From a virus, in IMG/VR virus record IMGVR_UViG_3300009285_002240, positions 1 through 29,243 of that record: a DNA stretch of 29,243 bases; one strand, given 5' to 3'. This document shows, in pieces, positions 5,829 through 19,806 of this stretch. The notes under the pieces are model-generated. The model did not search any database and was not told where the DNA came from. It worked only from the letters and a program-made list of their open reading frames with translations. Every line of letters starts with the position of its first letter. The first letter of the stretch is position 1. Position numbers and translations under genes: made by a program.

Positions 5829-7159
5829 CAATGGACAGAAGAGATATAACCGAATTTATGAACTGGCTTGCGAAAAATTATGGTTCCGGCAGTCCCGTAT
5901 TAAGAGAGTTTTTAAAAGAATACAATCAAGGCAAGATCAGTTTCCCTGTCAAAAGGAATCTTATAAAAGGGATAGGCTGGACGTGGAAATACGACTGGAC
6001 TAAACTCTATGACGCATATAAGAATCCTCAAATTGAAGTTCCCACTCCTGACGAATCCATCGCTCCGAATGTAACAGACGAAGAAAAAACCTACTTAGGT
6101 TATACTCCTGAAGAAATTGCTATTGGTATTCCTGACCTGGAACTTGAACGTGAACGTTTAAATTGGGGGCAGGAACAGGATAAATGGCAGAGACAACTAA
6201 AAGAAAGAGAGTTTGCCCAAGATGCTGCCGATAGAGCTTCCGAAACCCAGCGGATGAAATATGAAGGTCAACTTGCAGGTTATAGCCAGTGGTTGGGAAA
6301 TGCGTTAAATCCAAACAATCTCTGGCAACCGGATAAAGCCGATATAGATGCTCAACTCGAACAGGCTTGGGAGTCTGGAAGGCAGTTGTCTTTGAGGGAT
6401 TTGAAAGTGGACCCTTATAAGAACTGGATAACGATAGGCGATGTCCAGTCGGCAAAGAATCCGTTTACTACACAGAAAGCTACTACTGCGTTTGTTGATA
6501 CGGAACGTGCGGCTGAAATCGATACTGGAATCAAGTATTACGAGAGTAAACTAAAAGAATTAAACGATAGGCTGAAAGACCCTACCGACCCGCTTTATGA
6601 GAGTCCCGACTTTATGAACGCAAGGAAAACACTCAAAGATACAATAAGCGGGTTGAAAGACCAGAAGTATCAAGCTGAAGGCGGTTATGACTGGTCTGGC
6701 GGGGCGATGACGGGAATATTAACTTCTCATCCGGGAAGCACTCCTGCGGGATTAACTAATTCAGCCGCAGCATTTTACCAGAATCCTAACAGTCCTGAAT
6801 TTGCCGCTACCAGTTCAGCGGATAAAATAACTATGGGCAACATCATAGGAAGTTTAACCGGGGCAGCGATGTCCTCGGGGTATAGGCCGTCTGTAGAAGA
6901 TAAAGGCACGTTAACACCTTCATGGTTAAAGACCTTTTCCCCCGGACTTGGCGAGTATATACCTAGAACCGGAGCGGCAGCTGAAGGTATCACTCCTTCA
7001 AGACAGTCGTTTAATAGACTCGCCCCTTCTCAGCGAAGCATGTTGGCTGGTTACTATGAAAGGGCAGGTCAAAACCCGGCAGACATGCTGTGGTCAATGG
7101 ATGTCCAAACTCCTCAGACATTAAGACTCGGCAGAACATGGAAACCGGCGAGGGTGTAA
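5825..7159 (+). CDS. Predicted virion-associated protein of unknown function
   Basis: A 444-residue protein starting ATGACAATG after GAGGGG, overlapping the previous stop by four bases. The N-terminal 60 residues are globular (MNWLAKNYGSGSPVLREFL). Residues about 95-160 form a charged coiled-coil candidate (LELERERLNWGQEQDKWQRQ), another charged helix lies near 230-260, and the last 150 residues are Gly/Ala/Ser/Pro-rich. This rod-plus-disordered architecture suits an internal or ejected virion protein or portal-bound assembly factor. No enzyme motif was seen. It forms a pair with the giant protein that follows. Confidence 0.7.
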   Translation: MTMDRRDITEFMNWLAKNYGSGSPVLREFLKEYNQGKISFPVKRNLIKGIGWTWKYDWTKLYDAYKNPQIEVPTPDESIAPNVTDEEKTYLGYTPEEIAIGIPDLELERERLNWGQEQDKWQRQLKEREFAQDAADRASETQRMKYEGQLAGYSQWLGNALNPNNLWQPDKADIDAQLEQAWESGRQLSLRDLKVDPYKNWITIGDVQSAKNPFTTQKATTAFVDTERAAEIDTGIKYYESKLKELNDRLKDPTDPLYESPDFMNARKTLKDTISGLKDQKYQAEGGYDWSGGAMTGILTSHPGSTPAGLTNSAAAFYQNPNSPEFAATSSADKITMGNIIGSLTGAAMSSGYRPSVEDKGTLTPSWLKTFSPGLGEYIPRTGAAAEGITPSRQSFNRLAPSQRSMLAGYYERAGQNPADMLWSMDVQTPQTLRLGRTWKPARV

Positions 7160-7160
7160 A

Positions 7161-10100
7161 TTGAGTGAGTTCTGGCAGAGTAAGTCTGGTATATTGGAAG
7201 ATGAACTCAATAAAGCTAAGGTTAACTGGCGTCCTCGAACACGTCCTGTCTGGCAGCCTAAAGAAATTTCGCCCGAAGAACCTATCTCAACAATTCCAGA
7301 AATAACTCCTGAAGAAACCAAGTGGTACGAAAAGCCTAAAGAACTCTTTGAGACAGGTGAAGAAAAACTGGCCGAGGGTATTTCCAAAGTCCCTCTTTTA
7401 CCCAAAGTACTAGAACCTGTAGGCAAGGCGTTTAATTGGGTTTATGAAAACCTGGAGAAACCGTTTGCCGCTATTATCACCTCTCCCTTCAGTCCTGACC
7501 TAACGTGGAAACAGGGAGAGTCTTTTATTCAGCATACGAAGAGAGAGTATGACGCATGGGATGCTCCGGCTTATATAAAAGGTGCCGCCGAATTTGCTAT
7601 GCCGCTATGGTGGATTCCCTGGTTTGGTTGGGCGGCTAAGGGAGCAAAGGCTCTTGGAGTGGGTGGCAAACTCGCTTCTAAAATGGCTAAAACCGTTACT
7701 AGGATTTCAGAGAAGGGGTTGCCGAAAGGGGAATTACTGGACAAAGTTCTCTTTAAGTCCAATCGTTTTACAAGGGCATTAGAAAATGTCCCTATTGTGA
7801 ATAAGATAGTCAAATTAGTAGGTGGTGAAGCGGCGTTTGCTCATCCTACTTCCCCCAATCCTTTACAGATTACCCGCAGATCCTTGGTTAAATCGGGATT
7901 CATCAATGATATGAGAAACGGGATTAAAGGGCTTTTAGTTCCTAAGCTTCAGGTTTTGGGGGATTCGGGTAAAATCTTAGGTATGGACTCAAAAGGTGTT
8001 GTCTCAAATATTTTAGATACATCCGGCAAGTCTCAATATCTCTATGACGTGTTAGAAGGGGCTATCAAGAATAAAGACAACTACAAATTTTTGACTAAGG
8101 AATCTGAAAAGTACGTCGATACTTTGAGAGATTCTTTGAATGAAATTTATACATTAGCCCGCAAAGAGGGCGTGAAAGTCCCTAAAGCTACGATAGTTCA
8201 CAGGATCGTCAAAGGTAAAACTAATCTCGATACTTTAAAATATGAAGCTACTGAAACAGGTTCTTACTTTGAGAAGTTGAGGACTCACCCTTTAATGAAA
8301 GAGGGTGTTGAGGCTGGCGTGGATTATGGCTTAAACATCGATGAATCTTTATCTTCCACGATAGACCACTACATCAAGGCGATTTCAAAAAAGAGGTTTG
8401 AAAAGGAAGTTGCCCCGCTCGGCCGTACTCCTAAACAAATGTGGGACTCTACTTCTGAAGGCGTGGAACTGGCACTACTGCATAATGAAAAGAATGCCGG
8501 GCAGATTTTCTTAAAAGAAGAGCGCTTGGCTGAACTGATAAAAGAAAAGACAGATTTTATCAAACACTATCAGGGACAACAGATACTTGGCGAGAACATG
8601 GCTAAGTTTCATATGCATCCTGTATTTAAAAACAAAATATTCCCCAAAGAAGTCGTCAAGACCGCGGAAAAGATTTTAAACGATGAAGGTCAAAAGTGGT
8701 TGCAATCGACAGCCAATCTTTCAGGGACTTCCAGAATGTTAACCGCATCCCTTGACTTGTCAGCCCCATTTATTCAGGGTGCTACCACGTGGGCTTTGAA
8801 CCCTTTAGCCTGGGGAAAAGCTGTTAAGGGGATGTTCGAGTTTACTATAAATCCTAAGAACTACTACAAGTATTTGGATAGTCCTGAAATTGCCGCAATT
8901 CGCCAAGAACGTATTTTAGCCGGAGGTTCATCGACTACATTTGAGTATTTCAATGCTCTCGCTCCTTTACAAAGAGCGGCTGGCAAAATCCCCGGTATCG
9001 GCGGGGGATTGCAGAAAGCCATCGGTGAGACATGGGGGAGAGCAGAGACTGCTTTCACAGGCTTTGGGGAAGTAGCAAGGAATGAACTCTGGAAGGCCAT
9101 GAGAACAGGTAAGAACGCACCTGAAGAACTCATGGACTTAGCCCGGACAATAGACAGAATGACAGGAGTGATGAGTACTGAAGCGTTAGCTATAGGAAGG
9201 ACGCAACAGGATTTTGAAAATGCCTTTGTGTTCTTTGCCCCTCGATACACACGAGCAGGGCTTTCATTTGTAGGTGATGCTTTAAAGAAAGGTATGCCGG
9301 GGGATGTAGCCAGAAAATCTCTAGGTTCTCTCATGGCCTCCGGTCTGACTTTCTATTACGGGGCGGCAAAGGTGTTAGGGCAACAACCTGATTTAAATCC
9401 AAATTCAGGCAGATTCTTGACTCTTAAAGTCGGTGATTCCCATGTGGGTATAGGCGGTATCATGGTGTCTCTGTTAAGGTTAGGTTATGACATCAGCGAG
9501 ACCGCCATAGAAGACCCGCAGAATCTGCTAAAACCAATCAACGCCGGACATTTAAACAGGGTTGACAATCCCTTTATTAAATGGTTGTATTCAAGGACTG
9601 CTCCGGTAACATCTACTTTAGTCGGGGGTATAGTAGAGCAAGCGGATTACTTCGGTGAACCCTTTGAGAGTGTGCAGGATTGGGGAAAATTCGTCTTAGA
9701 TAAAGTAATCCCTATCGCTGTTCAAGGGGCTATGGAACAGCCTGGCGTGGTTTCAGTAGCATCTCAATTCGGAGGTTTAAGACAATTTCCTAAATCAGCA
9801 TGGGAACTCCTGGATGAAGAACGGGACAGGATCGCGATAAGGGATTTCCAGCAACCTTATGATAATCTTAACGATCTTAATAAGATGAAAGTCGATAAGA
9901 CAGACATAATCAGGAAGATTCAGAAAGATGTTGATTCAAGTACCGTTTCCAGAGGGGATGCTTTAAGTGTCTCATTTCTTAATAGAGAAAGGGAAAGAGA
10001 AGGTGCGCGGCAGGTCTACGAAGATACCCTGTGGAATTTACAAAAGGCTGTAGAAGATGGTGTTATTGACGGGGTTAAATTCAGGGAAGAGATGCAGAAC

Positions 10101-11598: not shown

Positions 11599-12456
11599 AT
11601 GGCGTATACAATTGCCACTGATTTGGCTGCGGGTCAAATCGCTATGATAGGCGAAGCTCGTTTCACACTTGAACACGATGTTGTGTTAGACGGGCTTTTT
11701 ACCAAAGCAACTCTCGAAAAGGGGGAGAAGTCAAAGTTCTATCCCAAGTTCGGCTCAGTCACGGCCAGCGATTTGACCGATGGCGTAGACATGACCGACG
11801 CCCAATCATTAACCATCACCGGCACGACTCACATTACAGACGAAGCCGGCTGCAAAGTGATCGTCACGAAGAAACTTGTCCAACAGCTTAAAGAGGACAC
11901 ATTCAGGGCTACCGGGAAAATAATCGGCAACGCCATGAGAAAGAAAATAGAGACAGACGGTCTCGGTCTTTTCAGCGGCCTTGCAAACGGCTTGGGGAGT
12001 TCCGGCACTACTTTCTCTATCGCCTATATGCAGGCTGCCGTCACGCAAATGTACGGCCAATCCGAACCTGCCCCCGATCCTATTTACGCAGTCCTGCATC
12101 CCTATACCTATCACGACATCAAAACCAATCTCGCCATCCCCGGCACTTCCAATATGCCCGAAGGTATTCAGGGTTCAGCTTTACAGGGTAAATGGAGAGG
12201 GAATGAACCATTGTACGGTGTTCCTATCTTTATCGCGGGTAACATCGACAACTCAACCGCCGCCGCTACCTACAGCGCTATCTTCTCCAAGATGGCTTTC
12301 ATCTACCTGGTGGGCTGGGAACCGGAACAGTGGATAGAAGAGGACAAATCCCTGCGAGGATGGGAAATCGGAATCGTGGCCGACTACGCTTGTGTCGAAG
12401 AGGATGACGGTTACGGCCGCTATCTCTTATTCGATGCTACCGCGCCGACCAGCTAA
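11599..12456 (+). CDS. Major capsid protein (HK97-like fold expected)
   Basis: A 285-residue protein after a strong AGGAGG. It begins MAYTIATDLAAGQ and has an early strand-rich segment with a loop (TLEKGEKSKFYPKFG), a helix near residues 88-120 (VTKKLVQQLKEDTFRATGKI) and a C-terminal beta region with GWEIGIVADYACVEEDD. Size, position after the scaffold and this helix/beta layout fit a phage coat protein; hundreds of copies form the shell. The codon use (many GCC/ACC/CTC) is more GC-rich than flanking genes, as expected of a highly expressed product. Confidence 0.85.
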   Translation: MAYTIATDLAAGQIAMIGEARFTLEHDVVLDGLFTKATLEKGEKSKFYPKFGSVTASDLTDGVDMTDAQSLTITGTTHITDEAGCKVIVTKKLVQQLKEDTFRATGKIIGNAMRKKIETDGLGLFSGLANGLGSSGTTFSIAYMQAAVTQMYGQSEPAPDPIYAVLHPYTYHDIKTNLAIPGTSNMPEGIQGSALQGKWRGNEPLYGVPIFIAGNIDNSTAAATYSAIFSKMAFIYLVGWEPEQWIEEDKSLRGWEIGIVADYACVEEDDGYGRYLLFDATAPTS

Positions 12457-12473: not shown

Positions 12474-12755
12474 ATGGGACTATCAGATACGGACATTACT
12501 AAAAACATCTTTCGCATCGGGGAAAGTCGCCAGAGGTCTATTTACTACCGGCCGGACGGGACTCCGACTAAACCCCTTCCCTCCGACCTGGAAGGGCAAC
12601 TTCACTATCTGGGGAAGGGTTTTACACTTAACAAAAAGGGTAGTACACCTAACAGGTGTCCGTATTGTGAATTTGTTGCACAAAATGCGCTTGGGCTGCG
12701 AACGCATCTAAACAAACACGTAGCCGAATCTAAAATCGAGGAGGAATCTAAATGA
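12474..12755 (+). CDS. Capsid-adjacent protein with a C2H2 zinc finger
   Basis: A 93-residue protein. The N-terminal part carries YYRPDGTPTKPLPSD and YLGKGFTL, a pattern seen by memory in phage proteins near capsid genes. Residues 62-82 form a textbook C2H2 finger: C62-x2-C65-x12-H78-x3-H82, with hydrophobic residues at usual positions (F67, L76). Zinc should be bound; DNA binding is possible but single fingers also mediate protein contacts. GGAG lies upstream of the ATG. The end overlaps the next start by 4 bases. It lies between coat and capsid-associated genes, so it may act during head assembly or late regulation. Confidence 0.75.
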   Translation: MGLSDTDITKNIFRIGESRQRSIYYRPDGTPTKPLPSDLEGQLHYLGKGFTLNKKGSTPNRCPYCEFVAQNALGLRTHLNKHVAESKIEEESK

Positions 12756-13597
12756 GTTTTCCGTACACCGTACCATTAACGGATAAAGAAGTGCGTACAC
12801 CTACCACAACTCAACGCGCCCCTTTGGGGACTCGCGGAGCTACGCCTGACGGCAGAATCTTCAGGTATGCCAAGAACGGGGCTACCGCTCTCACTAAGGG
12901 GCTTCTCTGCCAGGGTAAGGTTCAAACTACCGCATGGAGCAACACCACCGCTTCGTATATCTCTACGGCCTTCCTGACGGAACTCGGCACGACAGATATT
13001 GCGGCCGGTACTACTTACCTTCATCTCACGGCTACCGGCGATACAGACCTGACCGTTACCAAAGACCTCTTTAAAGAGGGATGGATTTGGGTTTCGGGGA
13101 CAGCTACCTCCGCCGGGCAGTTGATGAAAATCAAGACCAACAATGTAGCTTCATCCGGCTCTACCGGTTACTCCGCAACAGGCGGCCAACTTTATGTTGA
13201 GTTTGAAGCTGGTTATGCTTTGAGCGACCCGATAGATACCGCCGCTGAAGTCTCCGTATGCGAGAACGAATACGATGGCGTTGTGGTGAGCGCGACTACT
13301 GCCACTGCTGAACTCGTAGGTGTTCCTGCTGTTAACGTTGCCGCCTCCAGGTACTTCTGGATTCAGACATGGGGGCCCTGCGCCATGAAGTCCGAGGCCG
13401 AAGCTATCACCTCCGGCAAGACTGTCTGGAATTCTACTCAAACTGCCGGCTGCATTCAGGGTGTCACCGGTTCTACCGATATTACCGGCACTGATGCAAT
13501 CGCCGGAGGCATAGTGGGTAGGATTGTGCAGTCCTCGGCTGATGCTGTTCTCCAGGCTTCCTGTAACATTCTTGTCCATCTGACTCTCGCCCCGTAA
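12752..13597 (+). CDS. Capsid-associated (decoration-type) beta protein
   Basis: A 281-residue, Thr/Ala/Gly/Ser-rich, beta-strand-rich protein. Its N-terminal layout (LGTRGATPDGRIFRYAKNGATALTKG split over residues 25-52) resembles a family found next to phage major capsid genes. ATGAG overlaps the preceding stop. Likely a capsid decoration or stabilising protein on the virion surface. If the virion is glycosylated by the downstream cassette, this Ser/Thr-rich protein is a plausible acceptor, but that is speculation. Confidence 0.7.
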   Translation: MSFPYTVPLTDKEVRTPTTTQRAPLGTRGATPDGRIFRYAKNGATALTKGLLCQGKVQTTAWSNTTASYISTAFLTELGTTDIAAGTTYLHLTATGDTDLTVTKDLFKEGWIWVSGTATSAGQLMKIKTNNVASSGSTGYSATGGQLYVEFEAGYALSDPIDTAAEVSVCENEYDGVVVSATTATAELVGVPAVNVAASRYFWIQTWGPCAMKSEAEAITSGKTVWNSTQTAGCIQGVTGSTDITGTDAIAGGIVGRIVQSSADAVLQASCNILVHLTLAP

Positions 13598-13611
13598 GAA
13601 CAAAAGGCTTG

Positions 13612-13637
13612 GGAGGGTGTGCCTTTAAACACCCTCC
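13612..13637 (+). terminator. Stable hairpin between the head genes and the sugar cassette
   Basis: A 9-bp perfect stem GGAGGGTGT / ACACCCTCC with an 8-base loop, 15 bases after the previous stop. It lacks a T-run (AATTAAAG follows), so it may be a weak terminator, an mRNA-stability hairpin or a processing site that lowers expression of the downstream enzymes relative to coat genes. Confidence 0.6.
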
Positions 13638-13659: not shown

Positions 13660-14127
13660 ATGATTACAATAAGACCTGCTACAGAAGCAGACATACCTCT
13701 TGTGTTTGCGTGGCGCAATAAACCTGAAGTCTATCAGGGTTTTTACTCTCAAAAATCCTCTCTAAACTATTTCGAACATCTCAACTGGTGGTATTCTCGC
13801 CCTCATTCATGGCATATGTTCATTATTATGCTCGATGAAAAACCTATCGGGCTAATCAATATAGGTCAATGTGAACACTGGTCTCCGGAACTAGGTTGGA
13901 TGATAGGCGAGACTGAATATTGGAGCAAGGGTTATTGCCAGGAAGCTCTTAAATTAGTGTTTGAATGGCTTAAAGAGAGAGGTTACAAACACTGTCATAC
14001 AACTATTAAATGGGACAATGAAGCAAGTGGACACTTAGCTTGGAAATTGGGATTTGTCCTACAGGGCGAAGCGAGAGAAGGAGAATCATGGCTAACGAAA
14101 AACCTGACGACAAATTACCTGATCTAA
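13660..14127 (+). CDS. GNAT N-acetyltransferase (PseH-like position in sugar cassette)
   Basis: A 155-residue GNAT enzyme. MITIRPATEADIPLVFAWRN is the usual first strand/helix; the acetyl-CoA site is ELGWMIGETEYWSKGYCQEA (about residues 76-95), followed by the HTTIKWDNEASGHLAWKLGF motif B region. This RimJ/PseH-like type acetylates amino groups on proteins or nucleotide-sugars. With dehydratase and aminotransferase in the same cassette, acetylation of a 4-amino-4,6-dideoxy sugar nucleotide is the best guess. AAAGGAA precedes the ATG; an in-frame GTG at 13609 lies in the hairpin and is rejected. It overlaps the next gene by 40 bases. Confidence 0.85.
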   Translation: MITIRPATEADIPLVFAWRNKPEVYQGFYSQKSSLNYFEHLNWWYSRPHSWHMFIIMLDEKPIGLINIGQCEHWSPELGWMIGETEYWSKGYCQEALKLVFEWLKERGYKHCHTTIKWDNEASGHLAWKLGFVLQGEAREGESWLTKNLTTNYLI

Positions 14128-14957
14128 ATTACAAGGTAAGGGAAATCAAACACTTAAGAGGGCTGGGAAACTTCGACAGCGAAGTTGATTTGATGATCGA
14201 AAGGATGAATAAAATCAAACCTTTCAGAGAAAAAGAGTTAATCATCGAAGCAATGGGAGCTACCAGGGCGGAGTGTCCCTTTGACTGTGAAACATGGGCT
14301 TGTAATATGGGTTACTGGCAAATTTTCCAACTGGATGGACACTTTTCGAAAATCTTTTTGACTCATGCACAAGTGAGAGATGTAAACGGTAAACCTGCTT
14401 TTAATTGGGATGAGTTCAATAAATTGGCAAAAAAGGGTATTACAGTCTATAACACTCACAAAGTCAAAGGTCTCAATTCAAAGATGTACCCGTATAAGCG
14501 GCTGTCTCAAAAGTTCAACACAGACTATTTCTCCAACACAATTTCATACATGGTAGCTTTAGCTTTAGACGAGGGCTATAAAAAGATAAGTCTGTATGGC
14601 TGTGACATGATGACCAGAAGCGAATACGCCTGGGAGAAGGGCGGAATCGAATACTGGTTAGGCAGAGGGGAAGGTAAAGGTAAAAATGACCCTAATTATG
14701 TTGAGATCAAAGTTTGCGATGGTTCTACTCTTTTAAAGACCATCACGGGCAAACCCTACGGAATGAAATACTTCAATCTAAAAGACATTGACCCTACCGG
14801 GGAATTGAGAAAAAAAGTTAAAGCAGCAGTCCCGCCGACTACTTCAACAGGTTTTATGTACGAAGACCCCATCAGACCCCCCGATCCTCAAATGACTCCA
14901 TATGTCTCTATTGTGGCTGAAACATTCGGTAATGCGGGAAGACCGGCAAACAAATGA
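14088..14957 (+). CDS. Maf/DUF115-like protein, possible glycosyltransferase
   Basis: A 289-residue protein; ATG 14088 follows AGAAGGAG and is chosen over an in-frame ATG at 14040. A Rossmann-like core is suggested by ELIIEAMGATR, an ACNMGYW segment, NTISYMVALALDEGYKKISL and YGCDM, followed by SEYAWEKGGIEYWLG. This is a family met in several phages. Its core strand-helix-strand resembles DUF115/Maf and sialyltransferase-like proteins. Maf enzymes put nonulosonic acids on flagellin Ser/Thr, so a transferase role is attractive, but the family is also known without such cassettes and catalytic residues are not established. It overlaps the dehydratase by 4 bases. Confidence 0.6.
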   Translation: MANEKPDDKLPDLNYKVREIKHLRGLGNFDSEVDLMIERMNKIKPFREKELIIEAMGATRAECPFDCETWACNMGYWQIFQLDGHFSKIFLTHAQVRDVNGKPAFNWDEFNKLAKKGITVYNTHKVKGLNSKMYPYKRLSQKFNTDYFSNTISYMVALALDEGYKKISLYGCDMMTRSEYAWEKGGIEYWLGRGEGKGKNDPNYVEIKVCDGSTLLKTITGKPYGMKYFNLKDIDPTGELRKKVKAAVPPTTSTGFMYEDPIRPPDPQMTPYVSIVAETFGNAGRPANK

Positions 14958-15763
14958 ACTATCTAATCACCGGTGGGACTGGCACTCTCGGGACTGCATT
15001 AACCAGGTATCTTTTAAAAAAAGACGCCCAAACAATACGCATTTATTCAAGAAATGAATACTCTCAAGTTGAAATGCAGCGTGAACTAAACGACCCAAGA
15101 TTAAGGTTTCTGATAGGGGATATTAGAGACTTTAACAGGTTAAAAAGAGCCATGTCCGGTGTAGATTACGTGATTCATTGCGCAGCTTTAAAGCACGTTC
15201 CGGTCTGTGAGTACAATCCTATCGAAGCTATCAAAACAAATGTAGACGGAGCGGTGAACGTTATTGATTCCGCTATCGACTGCGGAGTTAAAAAGGTCAT
15301 TAACATTTCATCTGATAAAGCCGTCTACCCGATTAATTTATATGGGGCTACCAAACTATCCGCGGAAAAACTCTTTATCTACTCCAATATCTACGGTAAA
15401 GACCGTACCTTATTTTCATGTATCAGGTTCGGTAATATCTGGGGTTCCAAAGGTTCGGTTATTCCCTTGTGGATGAGGCAAAGGGAAACAGGAACTCTAA
15501 CATTGACCGATAAGGAAATGACCAGATATTGGATAGATATTGACGATGCCTGTAATTATGTGAGATATTTTCTTGACATTATGAAGGGTGGAGAGATATT
15601 CATACCTAAGATGAAAGAAAGAACGATGGAAGAAATCGCTCACGAAATCGCCCCGGAATGTAAATTAAAAATCATCGGTACCAGGTTTGGGGAAAAACTA
15701 GCTGAAAGACTCTGGACTGATGAAGAACAAACAAAAGATATGGGGGCGTATTACGTAATATGA
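14954..15763 (+). CDS. UDP-GlcNAc 4,6-dehydratase-like SDR (PseB/FlaA1/CapD type)
   Basis: A 269-residue extended short-chain dehydrogenase. NAD(P) motif GGTGTLG at residues 7-13; D56 and R58 in GDIRD; CAALKHVP at 76-83. The active site is D121-K122 ... Y130-x3-K134 in SSDKAVYPINLYGATK, the spacing of FlaA1/PseB, inverting dehydratases that make UDP-2-acetamido-2,6-dideoxy-hexos-4-ulose. The general CapD-like fold is secure; substrate is inferred. It is shorter than typical PseB (about 330 residues), lacking part of the C-terminal region. It probably performs the first step of the cassette's sugar pathway and is coupled by 4-base overlaps on both sides. Confidence 0.88.
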   Translation: MNYLITGGTGTLGTALTRYLLKKDAQTIRIYSRNEYSQVEMQRELNDPRLRFLIGDIRDFNRLKRAMSGVDYVIHCAALKHVPVCEYNPIEAIKTNVDGAVNVIDSAIDCGVKKVINISSDKAVYPINLYGATKLSAEKLFIYSNIYGKDRTLFSCIRFGNIWGSKGSVIPLWMRQRETGTLTLTDKEMTRYWIDIDDACNYVRYFLDIMKGGEIFIPKMKERTMEEIAHEIAPECKLKIIGTRFGEKLAERLWTDEEQTKDMGAYYVI

Positions 15764-15963
15764 CAGCCTACGAATATCTTAAATCCTTACCTAGAGAATA
15801 TATACCTAGAAACCCAAGCAATAGTGAACTATGGAGGTGGCTAGCAAATCGCTCAATAGCAATTAATGGAAAAACACCTGTGCCTAAAGAAGAAATTGAA
15901 TTCCCGATAAATAAATTAGTGTTTTTTCATAATGACAAGAAAGTGACATTATGCTATGAATAA
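15760..15963 (+). CDS. Small protein with S4-like RWLxNxxIxING pattern
   Basis: A 67-residue protein with NSELWRWLANRSIAINGKTP (residues 20-39) and INKLVFFHNDKKVTLCY. Small phage proteins with SELRRWL...INGxxPxPxEEI...LVFFPxGKRxTTL are common, and the pattern recalls the S4 RNA-binding fold. Sited inside the sugar cassette by 4-base overlaps, but no link with sugar chemistry is evident. AT content rises here. Confidence 0.65.
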   Translation: MTAYEYLKSLPREYIPRNPSNSELWRWLANRSIAINGKTPVPKEEIEFPINKLVFFHNDKKVTLCYE

Positions 15964-16054
15964 ACTAAAGCATTGGTTATTTATTATCTATGCTTATTTT
16001 GACCCTATCGGTGCTATGTGTCACCTAAAAAATGACATTGATAAACGACTATGA
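15956..16054 (+). CDS. Possible 32-residue peptide
   Basis: ATG at 15956 overlaps the previous stop. The product starts MNKLKHWLFIIYAYFDPIGA and ends LKNDIDKRL, with one short hydrophobic stretch. It overlaps the next start by 4 bases. The ATGA-type coupling on both sides is the only support. Function unknown. Confidence 0.45.
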   Translation: MNKLKHWLFIIYAYFDPIGAMCHLKNDIDKRL

Positions 16055-16227
16055 AAATATTAGGCTTATTTTTATTTGCAGGCTGTTATATGGCAGTAGT
16101 TTGGGGATTGTTTAGTTTTGTAGTTTGGATTTTTGATGATACGTTTACAATATTTCCCTTTATTTTTGCCTGGCTTATAACCACTCCTTTTTGTATGTGT
16201 TTAGGTTATGTGGCAGGTACCAAATGA
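16051..16227 (+). CDS. Small two-helix membrane protein
   Basis: A 58-residue, very hydrophobic protein: helix 1 ILGLFLFAGCYMAVVWGLF (residues 3-21) and helix 2 around FPFIFAWLITTPFCMCLGY. It overlaps the preceding stop and, by ATGA, the cytidylyltransferase start at 16224. A membrane protein inside the sugar cassette could anchor an enzyme or act in sugar transfer, but nothing specific is recognised. Confidence 0.6.
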   Translation: MKILGLFLFAGCYMAVVWGLFSFVVWIFDDTFTIFPFIFAWLITTPFCMCLGYVAGTK

Positions 16228-16766
16228 AAACCGTAGTCGCCATTACTTCAAGATGGAACTCTCTAAGACTCCCCGGCAAGGCTCTTAAAAAGATAAATGG
16301 TAAGCCTTTAATCAGGCATATCGTAGACCGGGCGAGACAGGCTAAGGTTGATGAAGTGGTTGTAGCTACGACTCTTAATTCCCCCTCGATTATAACCTAC
16401 TGCCAAAACCACGATATACCCTATTATGCCTATCAGGATGATGAAAACGTACTGGGGAGGCTTGTAGCGGTTGCAGATGCCTATGGCGCAGAGATCATCA
16501 TCTATTTATGGGGAGACTGCCCGTTTATCAATCCTGAAAAGATAGACGCCGGCTTAAAGTACTTCTCAATCTCACAGGATTATTTTTTCGATATGTCCCA
16601 ACCGATGGCGATAATGAAAACTGAATTACTAATGGAACTAAATAGAATTCACCTTTCAAGACACAAAATGGAATACATCCACGAGTACATGTTGAAGAAC
16701 TGCGTGAGACCAGTTTGCGAAATAAATACGATGGAGGATTTAAAAAAAGCCAATGCAATATTGTAA
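16224..16766 (+). CDS. SpsF/NeuA-type cytidylyltransferase
   Basis: A 180-residue nucleotidyltransferase. Motif SRWNSLRLPGKALKKINGKP (residues 9-28) is the CTP-binding loop of the SpsF/KdsB/NeuA/PseF group; YLWGDCPFINPEKID carries the Mg-binding Asp. These enzymes load an acidic sugar (nonulosonic or Kdo-like) onto CMP. At 180 residues it is shorter than usual (about 230-250), so the C-terminal dimerisation part is reduced. The exact substrate is unknown, and no NeuB-type synthase is visible to supply it. ATG 16224 overlaps the previous stop by 4 bases and the end overlaps the next gene by 14. Confidence 0.85.
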   Translation: MKTVVAITSRWNSLRLPGKALKKINGKPLIRHIVDRARQAKVDEVVVATTLNSPSIITYCQNHDIPYYAYQDDENVLGRLVAVADAYGAEIIIYLWGDCPFINPEKIDAGLKYFSISQDYFFDMSQPMAIMKTELLMELNRIHLSRHKMEYIHEYMLKNCVRPVCEINTMEDLKKANAIL

Positions 16767-17865
16767 AAGATGTGTTCAGTCCGATACTCGGCCGGGGATT
16801 GTCTTTAAAGATGGTGTCTGCGGAGCCTGTCTATATGAGGACGAAAAGATAAAGATCGACTGGAAGTCCAGAGAGAAACAACTCCAAAGAATAGCCGATG
16901 CCGCCCACTACCAGAATAAAGATTATGACTGCGTATTGGGGGTTTCAGGCGGTAAGGACTCCACCTATACGGCTCTCTATGCAAGGAACAAGCTGAATCT
17001 CAAGTGCCTCCTGGTCAATAACGAGCCTGAAGGTATTACGGAAATAGGGAAGCACAACATTGAGAATCTAATTAACCTGGGATTCGATGTAATCAAGGTC
17101 CGCCCCAATCCTCAAATCCTTAAGAGTATGATCAAGCGGGACTTCTACAAATATTTGAACCCGGTCAAGATTACAGAATACGCCTTGTGGTCGAGCGCTT
17201 ACATCATTGCGGATAAATTCAACATACCGTTAATCATTCAAGGTGAGAATCCCGCCTTGACTCTGGGTGTATCAAACGGTCTGCCTTCGGATGATAACGC
17301 CCTTAACGCCGATAAACAGAACACATTGAAAGACGGCTGGTTTCAATACTGCGATACCGTAAGTGAAAGGGATTTATTCCTTTACCATTACGACACACCT
17401 TCCTTAAGGACAAAGACAAAAGCTGTCTGGTTTCAATACTACGATAAGGATTGGAGCCCCAATCATAATGCTGAAGTGGCCATAAACCATGGACTCTATA
17501 CCAGAGACAATATAGTTGGTGGTTTCAACCCCGAAGACATAGGCACTTACGTACCTTACGCTCAACTGGATTCTGATTTAGTCCAGGTAAACCAGATGTT
17601 CAAATACCTTAAATTCGGATTCGGACAGTGTACCGATTACTGTTGTTATGACATACGGGAAGGTAAACTTAAAAGAGAGGCTGCCTGGGACTTATTAGAG
17701 AAGTATGACGGCAAGTGCGCCGGGAGATATATTCAAAAGTTCTGCGATTATATCGGGATTACTGTTGATGAAATGTGGCGGGTAGTCGATACATTCGTCA
17801 ATCCAAATCTTTTCAAAAAGGAAGGTGGTAAATGGATCAAACGCTTCTCGTATCCGGTGAACTAA
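16753..17865 (+). CDS. N-acetyl sugar amidotransferase (PseA/WbpG/LfnD type)
   Basis: A 370-residue enzyme. Four N-terminal cysteines (C4, C7, C23, C26) form a zinc site; the PP-loop ATP pyrophosphatase motif SGGKDS is at residues 65-70. Family members convert an acetamido group to acetamidino on pseudaminic/legionaminic acids or on ManNAcA-type sugars, using ATP and ammonia. Some need HisH/HisF-like partners to deliver ammonia; none is visible here. A second Cys group (CTDYCC) lies near residue 295. This is the most diagnostic gene for a nonulosonic or acetamidino-sugar pathway. The full length is in the usual range. Confidence 0.92.
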   Translation: MQYCKRCVQSDTRPGIVFKDGVCGACLYEDEKIKIDWKSREKQLQRIADAAHYQNKDYDCVLGVSGGKDSTYTALYARNKLNLKCLLVNNEPEGITEIGKHNIENLINLGFDVIKVRPNPQILKSMIKRDFYKYLNPVKITEYALWSSAYIIADKFNIPLIIQGENPALTLGVSNGLPSDDNALNADKQNTLKDGWFQYCDTVSERDLFLYHYDTPSLRTKTKAVWFQYYDKDWSPNHNAEVAINHGLYTRDNIVGGFNPEDIGTYVPYAQLDSDLVQVNQMFKYLKFGFGQCTDYCCYDIREGKLKREAAWDLLEKYDGKCAGRYIQKFCDYIGITVDEMWRVVDTFVNPNLFKKEGGKWIKRFSYPVN

Positions 17866-17879
17866 GTTGGGAGGAGTTT

Positions 17880-18212
17880 ATGCAATACAAAAGGGCGCTC
17901 ATAGTAACCGAAGTAAAAGACAATTCAGGCCACGAGCATGACTTCATAGGTACGGTAGGTGGTGAGGTTATCGGCAGGGCGGAACTCTTAATCGATAAGG
18001 AAAAGAATGAAGCTGAATTCAGGATTCATTTACTACCGGAGTGGCAAAGCAAGGGATACGGATACGAACTCACCAAGTTTACAGTAGAAAAGGGACTTAC
18101 CTACCTAAATAGAATCTGGTTAGGTTTTGAAGAAGAAAATTATAGAGCGCAAAAGCTCTATGAGAGCGTAGGTTTCAAATACACCGTTCACAGGATGGAA
18201 ATACATGCTTAG
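17880..18212 (+). CDS. GNAT acetyltransferase
   Basis: A 110-residue compact GNAT. The acetyl-CoA loop QSKGYGYELTKF matches Q/R-x-x-G-x-G, followed by the NYRAQKLYESVGF motif B. ATG 17880 is chosen because GGGAGGAG precedes it and it lies after the previous stop; an in-frame ATG at 17832 would overlap the amidotransferase. It overlaps the next GNAT by 8 bases. Substrate is unknown; a different amino-sugar position from the other two GNATs is possible. Confidence 0.82.
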   Translation: MQYKRALIVTEVKDNSGHEHDFIGTVGGEVIGRAELLIDKEKNEAEFRIHLLPEWQSKGYGYELTKFTVEKGLTYLNRIWLGFEEENYRAQKLYESVGFKYTVHRMEIHA

Positions 18213-18660
18213 GTTAAGAGAGGGCACTGATAACGATGCCTTATTAGTGATGACATGGCGTTCCAATCCAATCATCTATGCCGGTTTCTTAAAACAAACA
18301 TCACCTTTAACATGGGAAAATCATCTCACCTACTGGAAGAAACTCAAAAATTGGAAGCATTGGATTATCCTTTATGGTGAAGGAGAATATGAAAGACCAG
18401 TAGGGCAAATCAATATTCAGATGACTAACACTGACTGTCCTGAAATCGGATATTTCATAGGCGAGATTCCATTATGGGGAAGGGGAATTGCTACAGCATC
18501 TCTTAAATTAGTCCTGAACGAAATAAAGAAATTAGGATTCAATTATGTCTGCGCCGATATTAAAGAGGACAATCTTTCTTCAATAAAGGTTGTTGAGAAA
18601 TTAGGATTCAAATCTCATAACGGCAGGGACGGATTGAAAGGCTTTATTAAATCACTATGA
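18205..18660 (+). CDS. GNAT acetyltransferase (RimJ/PseH-like)
   Basis: A 151-residue GNAT. LRLREGTDNDALLVMTWRSN is the first strand/helix, EIGYFIGEIPLWGRGIATAS holds the RGIAT acetyl-CoA loop, and DIKEDNLSSIKVVEKLGF is motif B. It resembles the product at 13660 (both have the TWR/AWRN-P and IGE-W-G pattern), suggesting paralogues. It could acetylate the 4-amino sugar made by the aminotransferase that follows, which it overlaps by 4 bases. Confidence 0.87.
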   Translation: MLRLREGTDNDALLVMTWRSNPIIYAGFLKQTSPLTWENHLTYWKKLKNWKHWIILYGEGEYERPVGQINIQMTNTDCPEIGYFIGEIPLWGRGIATASLKLVLNEIKKLGFNYVCADIKEDNLSSIKVVEKLGFKSHNGRDGLKGFIKSL

Positions 18661-19712
18661 TAAACGATATTATCAACATCATAGAGTCCGGCAAGTTATC
18701 CGGCTTTCGCGGAACTCCCGAAGGTCATAATGGTGGTTATTGGGTTCAAGCTTTGGAGGAAGCGTTTAAGGAATACTTCAAAGTCAAACACGCCATATCA
18801 ATGAATTCTGCAACCGCCTGTCTACATAGTGCGGTGGTGGCAGCAAGTTATAATGCAGGAAAGTTCTTAACTTATGTCACTCCTTATTCTTTTAGTTCAA
18901 GTGTTTCTTGTGTTTTGATGGCACAATGTACGCCTAAATTTGGGGATATAGATGAGGATACCTTTAATTTATTACCGATAGACAGATTTTTTATTATTTC
19001 TATTCCCGTTCATTTAATGGGGCATCCTTGTGACCTTGATGAATTCATGGCTAATTTTATTATCGAAGACGCGTCCCAAGCCATCGGAGCAGAGTACAAG
19101 AGTAGGAAAGTTGGGACTATCGGGGACTGCGGTATCTTTTCCTTTAACCAATCCAAGCAAATTAGTTGTGGTGAAGGCGGGATGCTGATTACTAATAATG
19201 ATTACATAGCCAGGGTGTGCCGAGCCATGAGAAATCACGGAGAAGTTTCTGACCCTGATCTTAAAATTGTAGGCTATAATTACCGTCTGGGAGAAATAGA
19301 AGCCCGTATAGTTCTGGAGCAATTCAAGCACCTCGATGAAAACCTGGCCTACAGGAACGAATTGGCTCAATACATGACCTCGAGGATAATTGAGATAGAC
19401 GGGTTAATCCCTCCAAAGGTCATGCCCTACTGCACAAAACACGCCTGGTACACTTACGCAGTCAGGTATTTGAGAAAAGACATGCACAGGAATGAATTCC
19501 AAAGGGAAATGATGAACCGTGGTATTTACTTCGGGGCTGGTTATGTAACCCCCATTTATCATCAGCCGATTTACAATATCAGAGAACCTATTTGTCCTGT
19601 AGCTGAAAGAATGTACAAGGATGAGTTAATGGTATTCGACTGGTTGAAAACAGGCAAAACTAAAAAAGACGTGGACAAAGCGATAGATACGGCCAAAGCT
19701 ATTTTAAAGTGA
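18657..19712 (+). CDS. DegT/DnrJ/EryC1-family PLP aminotransferase (sugar nucleotide)
   Basis: A 351-residue aminotransferase. D138 in IIEDASQAIGAEY binds the PLP ring nitrogen, and K167 in FSFNQSKQISCGEGG forms the PLP Schiff base. RLGEIEARIVLEQ near residue 210 is the usual family helix. This family aminates keto-sugar nucleotides, PseC being the example after PseB. With the dehydratase at 14954 and GNATs it gives an acetamido-dideoxy sugar route. Last gene of the cassette; a promoter-terminator unit follows. Length is slightly under the usual 370-400. Confidence 0.92.
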   Translation: MINDIINIIESGKLSGFRGTPEGHNGGYWVQALEEAFKEYFKVKHAISMNSATACLHSAVVAASYNAGKFLTYVTPYSFSSSVSCVLMAQCTPKFGDIDEDTFNLLPIDRFFIISIPVHLMGHPCDLDEFMANFIIEDASQAIGAEYKSRKVGTIGDCGIFSFNQSKQISCGEGGMLITNNDYIARVCRAMRNHGEVSDPDLKIVGYNYRLGEIEARIVLEQFKHLDENLAYRNELAQYMTSRIIEIDGLIPPKVMPYCTKHAWYTYAVRYLRKDMHRNEFQREMMNRGIYFGAGYVTPIYHQPIYNIREPICPVAERMYKDELMVFDWLKTGKTKKDVDKAIDTAKAILK

Positions 19713-19757: not shown

Positions 19758-19779
19758 AAAGGTAGGGGCTTACTGATAA

Positions 19780-19806
19780 ACAGGTGCTAACCACACCTGT
19801 TTTTTT
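19780..19806 (+). terminator. Intrinsic terminator between sugar cassette and tail genes
   Basis: Stem ACAGGTG (19780-19786), 7-base loop, CACCTGT (19794-19800), then a run of T to 19806. It ends the cassette transcript and also stops the promoter 25 bases upstream. The flanks (ACTGATAAACAGG before, TTTTTTATTG after) match those of the terminator at 10805. Confidence 0.87.

Follow-up and report, generated by a model that had tools for sequence, protein, structure and literature searches.

A candidate nonulosonic acid cassette beside the head genes of uncultured tailed phages

The window analyzed here is an entire virus record (IMGVR_UViG_3300009285_002240), 29,243 bases long and with linear ends, and is probably a fragment of a phage genome. 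Its + strand genes are ordered from a terminase-like gene (2331) via the capsid gene (11599) and a conserved neighbor (12752), whose product is a putative head decoration protein, to a co-directional gene set at 13660 to 19712 on the + strand, after which virion genes follow from 21038. This gene set had been described in the original prediction as a cassette for a nonulosonic-acid-like sugar between head and tail genes. Family searches confirmed its dehydratase, DegT aminotransferase, GNATs, cytidine triphosphate (CTP) transferase, and amidotransferase, and the location was borne out by the capsid gene upstream and a virion structural gene (21038, phrog_8510) downstream. Overlooked at that time were the gene at 14088 to 14957, which encodes a protein with a transferase fold, and the presence of the synthase gene NeuB in related phages. 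The cassette contains the following genes:

13660 to 14127, + strand: GNAT acetyltransferase, PseH-like (PF13302, E 4.6e-23; PseH is the best NCBIfam model, TIGR03585, 34.4 bits)
14088 to 14957, + strand: Cst/Maf-superfamily transferase, candidate cytidine monophosphate (CMP)-nonulosonate transferase (profile against PDB and structure model)
14954 to 15763, + strand: uridine diphosphate (UDP)-GlcNAc 4,6-dehydratase type, PseB/FlaA1-like, short with 269 aa (PF02719, E 1.8e-88; TIGR03589, 344 bits, cut-off 408)
15760 to 15963, + strand: small open reading frame (ORF) at the place of NeuB in relatives (phrog_28515, E 2.3e-5)
16051 to 16227, + strand: small hydrophobic ORF in the same NeuB interval (ORF call, no family match)
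16224 to 16766, + strand: SpsF/KdsB-type CTP:sugar cytidylyltransferase, short with 180 aa (PF02348, E 5.6e-21)
16753 to 17865, + strand: N-acetyl sugar amidotransferase PseA/WbuX (TIGR03573, 300.7 bits over positions 1-344, cut-off 203.2)
17832 to 18212, + strand: GNAT acetyltransferase (PF00583, E 6.9e-11); the true start may be 17880
18205 to 18660, + strand: GNAT acetyltransferase of the subfamily of the first GNAT (PF13302, E 3.1e-18)
18657 to 19712, + strand: DegT/PseC-type pyridoxal phosphate aminotransferase (PF01041, E 2.7e-66; PseC model 175.6 bits, cut-off 423)

Most neighboring genes share between a few and about 40 nucleotides, in line with the tight overlap noted originally; the exception is the region 15963-16224 around the small hydrophobic ORF. 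PseA/WbuX is the only member above a curated functional cut-off, and the other enzymes are assigned at the family level. At that level, the combination of a 4,6-dehydratase and a DegT aminotransferase that characterizes nonulosonic acid clusters is present, with PseB and PseC as the best NCBIfam models, and so is a CMP-sugar synthetase (PF02348), which is short and of the SpsF type. Residues D121, K122, Y130, and K134 of the dehydratase, K167 (in SFNQSK) and D138 of the aminotransferase, and the N-terminal R.nS.R.PGKAL motif and WGD.PF of the cytidylyltransferase are invariant among relatives.

A purpose-built hidden Markov model detected 24 contigs with a homologue of the capsid gene, the window being one of them. 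The nearest relative is contig L008 (44.4 kb), whose capsid protein is 74% identical and which has at the same site the order GNAT, transferase, dehydratase, NeuB, CTP transferase, PseA, GNAT, Gfo/Idh-type oxidoreductase, and DegT. Because this independent contig carries the same cassette in the same place, and because the GC content and base composition of the cassette are not distinct from the rest of the window, the concern that the cluster could be an assembly chimera with host DNA can be dismissed. Cassette enzymes of the window and L008 are 50-70% identical (CTP transferase 66%, transferase 64%) and the decoration proteins 55%; synonymous changes are saturated, which for most genes precludes a ratio of nonsynonymous to synonymous changes. 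At the DNA level, the two cassettes match piecewise, with no match over the 3' part, which holds the final GNAT and the bulk of DegT, and an interruption over 15606-16242. This interruption is the NeuB interval: in L008, NeuB lies between the dehydratase and CTP transferase genes, exactly where the window has its small ORFs. The idea that 15760-16227 represents a broken NeuB remnant was rejected, as no NeuB similarity was found there.

NeuB is present in 8 of the 11 relatives tested, and only two matches to it were found among 50,697 phage records, in which the transferase and PseA had no match at all. The cassettes differ considerably in composition. L002 contains long and short NeuB, PseF-type, CysH-like, PseA, PseB, PseC, and PseH-type genes and is one of the relatives with a full PseF-type CMP transferase; L005, L006, L022, and L027 combine the dehydratase with a short NeuB and a CTP transferase; and L016, L020, and L116 have a long NeuB together with NeuA. 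The site is empty in L009, L011, L013, and L014. The short versions of NeuB (about 193-227 aa; L002 12223-12900, L008 14248-14895, and relatives) retain the core motifs but not the SAF domain. Of the capsid-family contigs, 14 extend 4.5 kb or more downstream; transferase and nonulosonate genes were both present in seven of these and both absent in the other seven (Fisher p 0.0006, uncorrected for kinship and for search bias, as L116 had been found via the transferase). In this family, the transferase gene is one of the first 3' of the decoration gene, and extra transferase copies in L005 and L006 adjoin fiber-like genes. No other sugar genes were noticed outside the cassette in those portions of L008 and L005 that were read.

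The protein encoded at 14088 to 14957 had no match in family-library scans. We therefore collected its relatives by profile search and aligned them, and 35 sequences served for the profile and the final structure model, which reached a predicted local distance difference test score (pLDDT) of 85.8 and superseded an earlier model with a pLDDT of 63.5 and weak Foldseek matches. When the profile was compared to the PDB, the nine best sequences were all sialyltransferases, with E-values from 0.0014 to 0.22, in alignments that ended before the catalytic His region. In structural comparisons using VIA-align, the model matched Maf (5mu5) with Z 12.0 over 156 residues, Cst-I with Z 11.0 over 159 residues, CstII with 10.6, and the Pasteurella sialyltransferase 9c08 with 10.3, in comparison to about 7.3 for human sialyltransferases and at most 5.4 for unrelated proteins. 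Only the central range of 5mu5, its Cst-like domain, aligns, and the flanking domains of this large multidomain protein of 632 residues have no counterpart in the window protein of about 290 aa. The assignment of the protein to the Cst/Maf/MptE superfamily is firm. As its profile leans to sialyltransferases and nonulosonate genes keep it company, its donor would be a CMP-nonulosonate.

Some relatives of this protein occur in other contexts. In L004 (9995-11059), the transferase-like protein is fused to a LicD-like domain, and in L103, L104, L105, and L106, contigs of Chloroflexota metagenome-assembled genomes, a distant relative adjoins a gene resembling one near the copy of L016. These Chloroflexota matches, remote homologues of the transferase in different gene blocks, give no indication of the host, and a match to a TM7 phage was rejected as a host clue because its coverage was only 16%.

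The surroundings of the cassette comprise these features:

11599 to 12456, + strand: major capsid protein, context gene (PF25209, E 2.8e-7)
12752 to 13597, + strand: putative head decoration protein of 281 aa, candidate sugar acceptor (role proposed from position)
13611 to 13637, + strand: GC-rich hairpin without T-tract at the junction of decoration gene and cassette (sequence)
19778 to 19802, + strand: terminator-like hairpin with T-tract at the cassette end (9-bp stem followed by a T-run; consensus match only)

The gene at 12752 to 13597 also adjoins the capsid gene in relatives, and its product had no match in Pfam and PDB searches. Most decoration genes of the relatives are followed by a GC-rich hairpin without T-tract whether or not a cassette is present, the stem being kept while the sequence differs. 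A promoter scan of the window gave matches no better than in shuffled sequence. Further genes were seen at or near the site in related contigs: an in-cassette GlmS-like enzyme (SIS and glutamine amidotransferase; L005 3872-5401, L006 2-589), which perhaps supplies amino sugars, and radical SAM proteins (L020 8090-10957, L024, L116 9470-10516). In L140 (Microcystis phage Mae-JY09), which has a related capsid, an annotated RfaG-type glycosyltransferase (7362-8546) lies just 3' of the capsid gene. The cyanophage-like genome L139 (Marine virus AG-345-L05) contains, at about 6113-9810, a trio of SpsF, PseC, and NeuB type that lacks annotation and lies in a cluster of sugar-type genes.

Taking these data together, we see about even chances that the window carries a decoration cassette for a nonulosonic acid of pseudaminic or legionaminic type that has lost its synthase gene and whose transferase acts on a virion protein. 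The originally proposed nonulosonate-type reading is strengthened by the NeuB and PseF-type genes of relatives and by the Cst/Maf-fold transferase, although the names PseH, PseB, PseC, and PseF hold only at the family level. The order of steps that we propose is built in part on the general Pse scheme. Dehydratase, aminotransferase, and GNAT would produce a UDP-diamino-trideoxy-hexose, UDP would be removed before the NeuB step, and in the relatives NeuB would condense the freed sugar with phosphoenolpyruvate. The SpsF/NeuA-type enzyme would then activate the product to the CMP-sugar, PseA could convert an N-acetyl into an acetamidino group, and the Cst/Maf-like protein would transfer the sugar to a virion protein; this order also follows the sps scheme (PMC7439481). 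We propose the upstream decoration protein as the likeliest acceptor in view of the early position of the transferase gene after the decoration gene in this family and of the fiber-like neighbors of the copies in L005 and L006. In this reading NeuB has been lost from the window cassette, so that the host, or the part of the genome absent from the record, would have to provide the synthase step. The data show the gene content, the homologous position, the transferase fold, and the replacement of NeuB; the enzyme activities, the order of substrates, the CMP-nonulosonate donor, and the virion acceptor are inferred. The host may supply UDP removal as well, and tapping of a host pathway, one of the functions originally considered, is possible for both missing steps. 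The reported tolerance of one Maf enzyme for several CMP-sugars would fit a host-supplied donor; Maf enzymes glycosylate flagellins (PMC11339370). Extending this to the whole group, we suggest somewhat more tentatively that uncultured tailed phages make a sialic-acid-like sugar, in some cases with acetamidino groups, that a small Cst/Maf-like enzyme coats the head decoration protein with it, and that each transferase copy modifies the protein of its neighboring gene.

Several observations weigh against this virion decoration. As originally stated, the NeuB and PseG steps are missing: neither NeuB nor PseG was found in the 29-kb record, which is a fragment, and PF02350 and PF04101 were likewise absent. 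Also in the close relatives, no UDP-sugar hydrolase (TIGR03590, PF04101, PF02350) was detected, and searches for a concealed PseG, SpsG, or NeuC in the close family were negative; PF02350 was found only in contigs L118 and L128. The short NeuB proteins miss the SAF domain, and no window protein reached the equivalog cut-offs of PseB, PseC, PseH, or PseF. Two of the three GNATs scored 34.4 and 26.6 bits with the PseH model (cut-off 93.1 bits), and the CTP transferase, which is closer to KdsB/SpsF types than to PseF, scored 27 bits with the PseF model (cut-off 206). With regard to the transferase, MptE/HPPK (Z 11.5), thiamine pyrophosphokinase (10.6), and SteA gave similar values, so that the donor is not fixed by the predicted fold; the gathering score of PF06002 (GT42, CST-I) was missed, with no match of the window protein and E 0.063 for the best family member, and no counterpart of the catalytic His of CstII was identified in the window protein. 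Finally, the virion acceptor is read from gene position only, and the gene at 12752-13597 is in its turn a putative decoration gene.

It is in principle conceivable that the sugar is placed on the host surface during infection or lysogeny, on lipopolysaccharide, capsule, or another glycan, with the Cst-like protein sialylating the host glycan and a receptor change or phage exclusion as a result. The match to Cst-I and CstII, which are glycan sialyltransferases, is about as good as that to Maf; a comparable gene set lies within a long surface-sugar-type cluster of a cyanophage-like record; and modification of host nonulosonates by prophage genes has been described (PMC12053666; PMC6586298). However, the cassette lies in the late virion operon, no flippase, polymerase, or membrane glycosyltransferase was recognized in it, no integrase was noticed in the parts of relatives read, and the transferase genes lie by decoration or fiber-like genes. 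We therefore regard a host-surface target as rather unlikely, and serotype change may stay among the functional options. Of the functions originally considered, glycosylated virions fit best, in view of the late-operon position and of a small, soluble-looking transferase beside the decoration gene, and a virion protein is the probable target of the transferase.

The NeuB-less window member could also make another, non-nonulosonate nucleotide sugar, such as an acetamidino UDP-diaminohexose, if the CTP transferase and the Cst/Maf-like protein had changed their substrate. The replacement of NeuB, the extra GNAT where L008 has an oxidoreductase, and the lack of a UDP hydrolase throughout the close family are in line with this view, but the two enzymes are 66% and 64% identical to those of the NeuB-bearing L008, with motifs retained, and there is no sign of a substrate shift, which renders this alternative clearly unlikely. 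Even less probable is a decaying cassette that the loss of NeuB has left non-functional. The small ORFs in place of NeuB could be taken as its trace, but all remaining frames are open, the catalytic residues are conserved, and the identity to L008 is in the range of the virion genes.

If virion decoration is correct, there are phages with a nearly self-contained route to virion nonulosonic acids, whose heads are covered in sialic-acid-like sugars, and adsorption, immune recognition, and spread could be affected. The short protein would be a candidate transferase for protein sialylation, and the presence of nonulosonate sugars on phage head proteins could be clearly tested. The relatives also show that sugar cassettes arrive, leave, and exchange parts at one fixed position, flanked by capsid genes on one side and tail genes on the other.

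Phage genes acting on nonulosonates and glycosylation of phage capsids are already documented, and a viral pseudaminic synthase gene is listed in a review. In the literature searched, which covered few subscription papers, we found no report of a phage nonulosonate cassette in a virion operon. The model shared with Campylobacter and Helicobacter, where Maf is a flagellin transferase, is one of protein-directed transfer in the cytoplasm. The pseudaminic acid pathway of these bacteria shares the PseB-, PseC-, PseH-, and PseA-type steps with the window, and Maf is the best fold match (Z 12.0), but Maf exceeds 600 aa, compared with about 290 aa for the phage protein, and the window lacks PseG and PseI. 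The GT42 sialyltransferases Cst-I, CstII, and 9c08 share the fold (Z 10.3-11.0) and a weak profile likeness (E 0.0014-0.22), but the phage protein misses the PF06002 gathering cut-off, and the catalytic His was not located on it. With the legionaminic acid pathway of Bacillus subtilis (SpsM, SpsC, SpsD, SpsG, SpsE, SpsF), the cassette has the dehydratase, aminotransferase, acetyltransferase, and SpsF-type CTP transferase in common, the SpsE/NeuB counterpart is present in phage relatives, and the sps product also decorates a protein-coated particle surface, the spore crust (PMC7439481). Differences to sps are the lack of an SpsG-type hydrolase in the window and close relatives, the added PseA, the short NeuB that is lost in the window, and the encoding by a phage adjoining its capsid genes. 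The mycobacteriophages Che8 and Rita are reported to encode glycosyltransferases and to have glycans on their capsid proteins (PMC11256854, citing Freeman 2023); the window encodes the sugar pathway too, and the available part of that source mentions no nonulosonate pathway for Che8 and Rita. In Acinetobacter, the prophage genes epaA/epaB (PMC12053666) and phage-encoded O-acetyltransferases for nonulosonic acids (PMC6586298) likewise act on nonulosonic acids, and they modify capsule sugar made by the host, whereas the window has most of a synthesis pathway within its virion operon.

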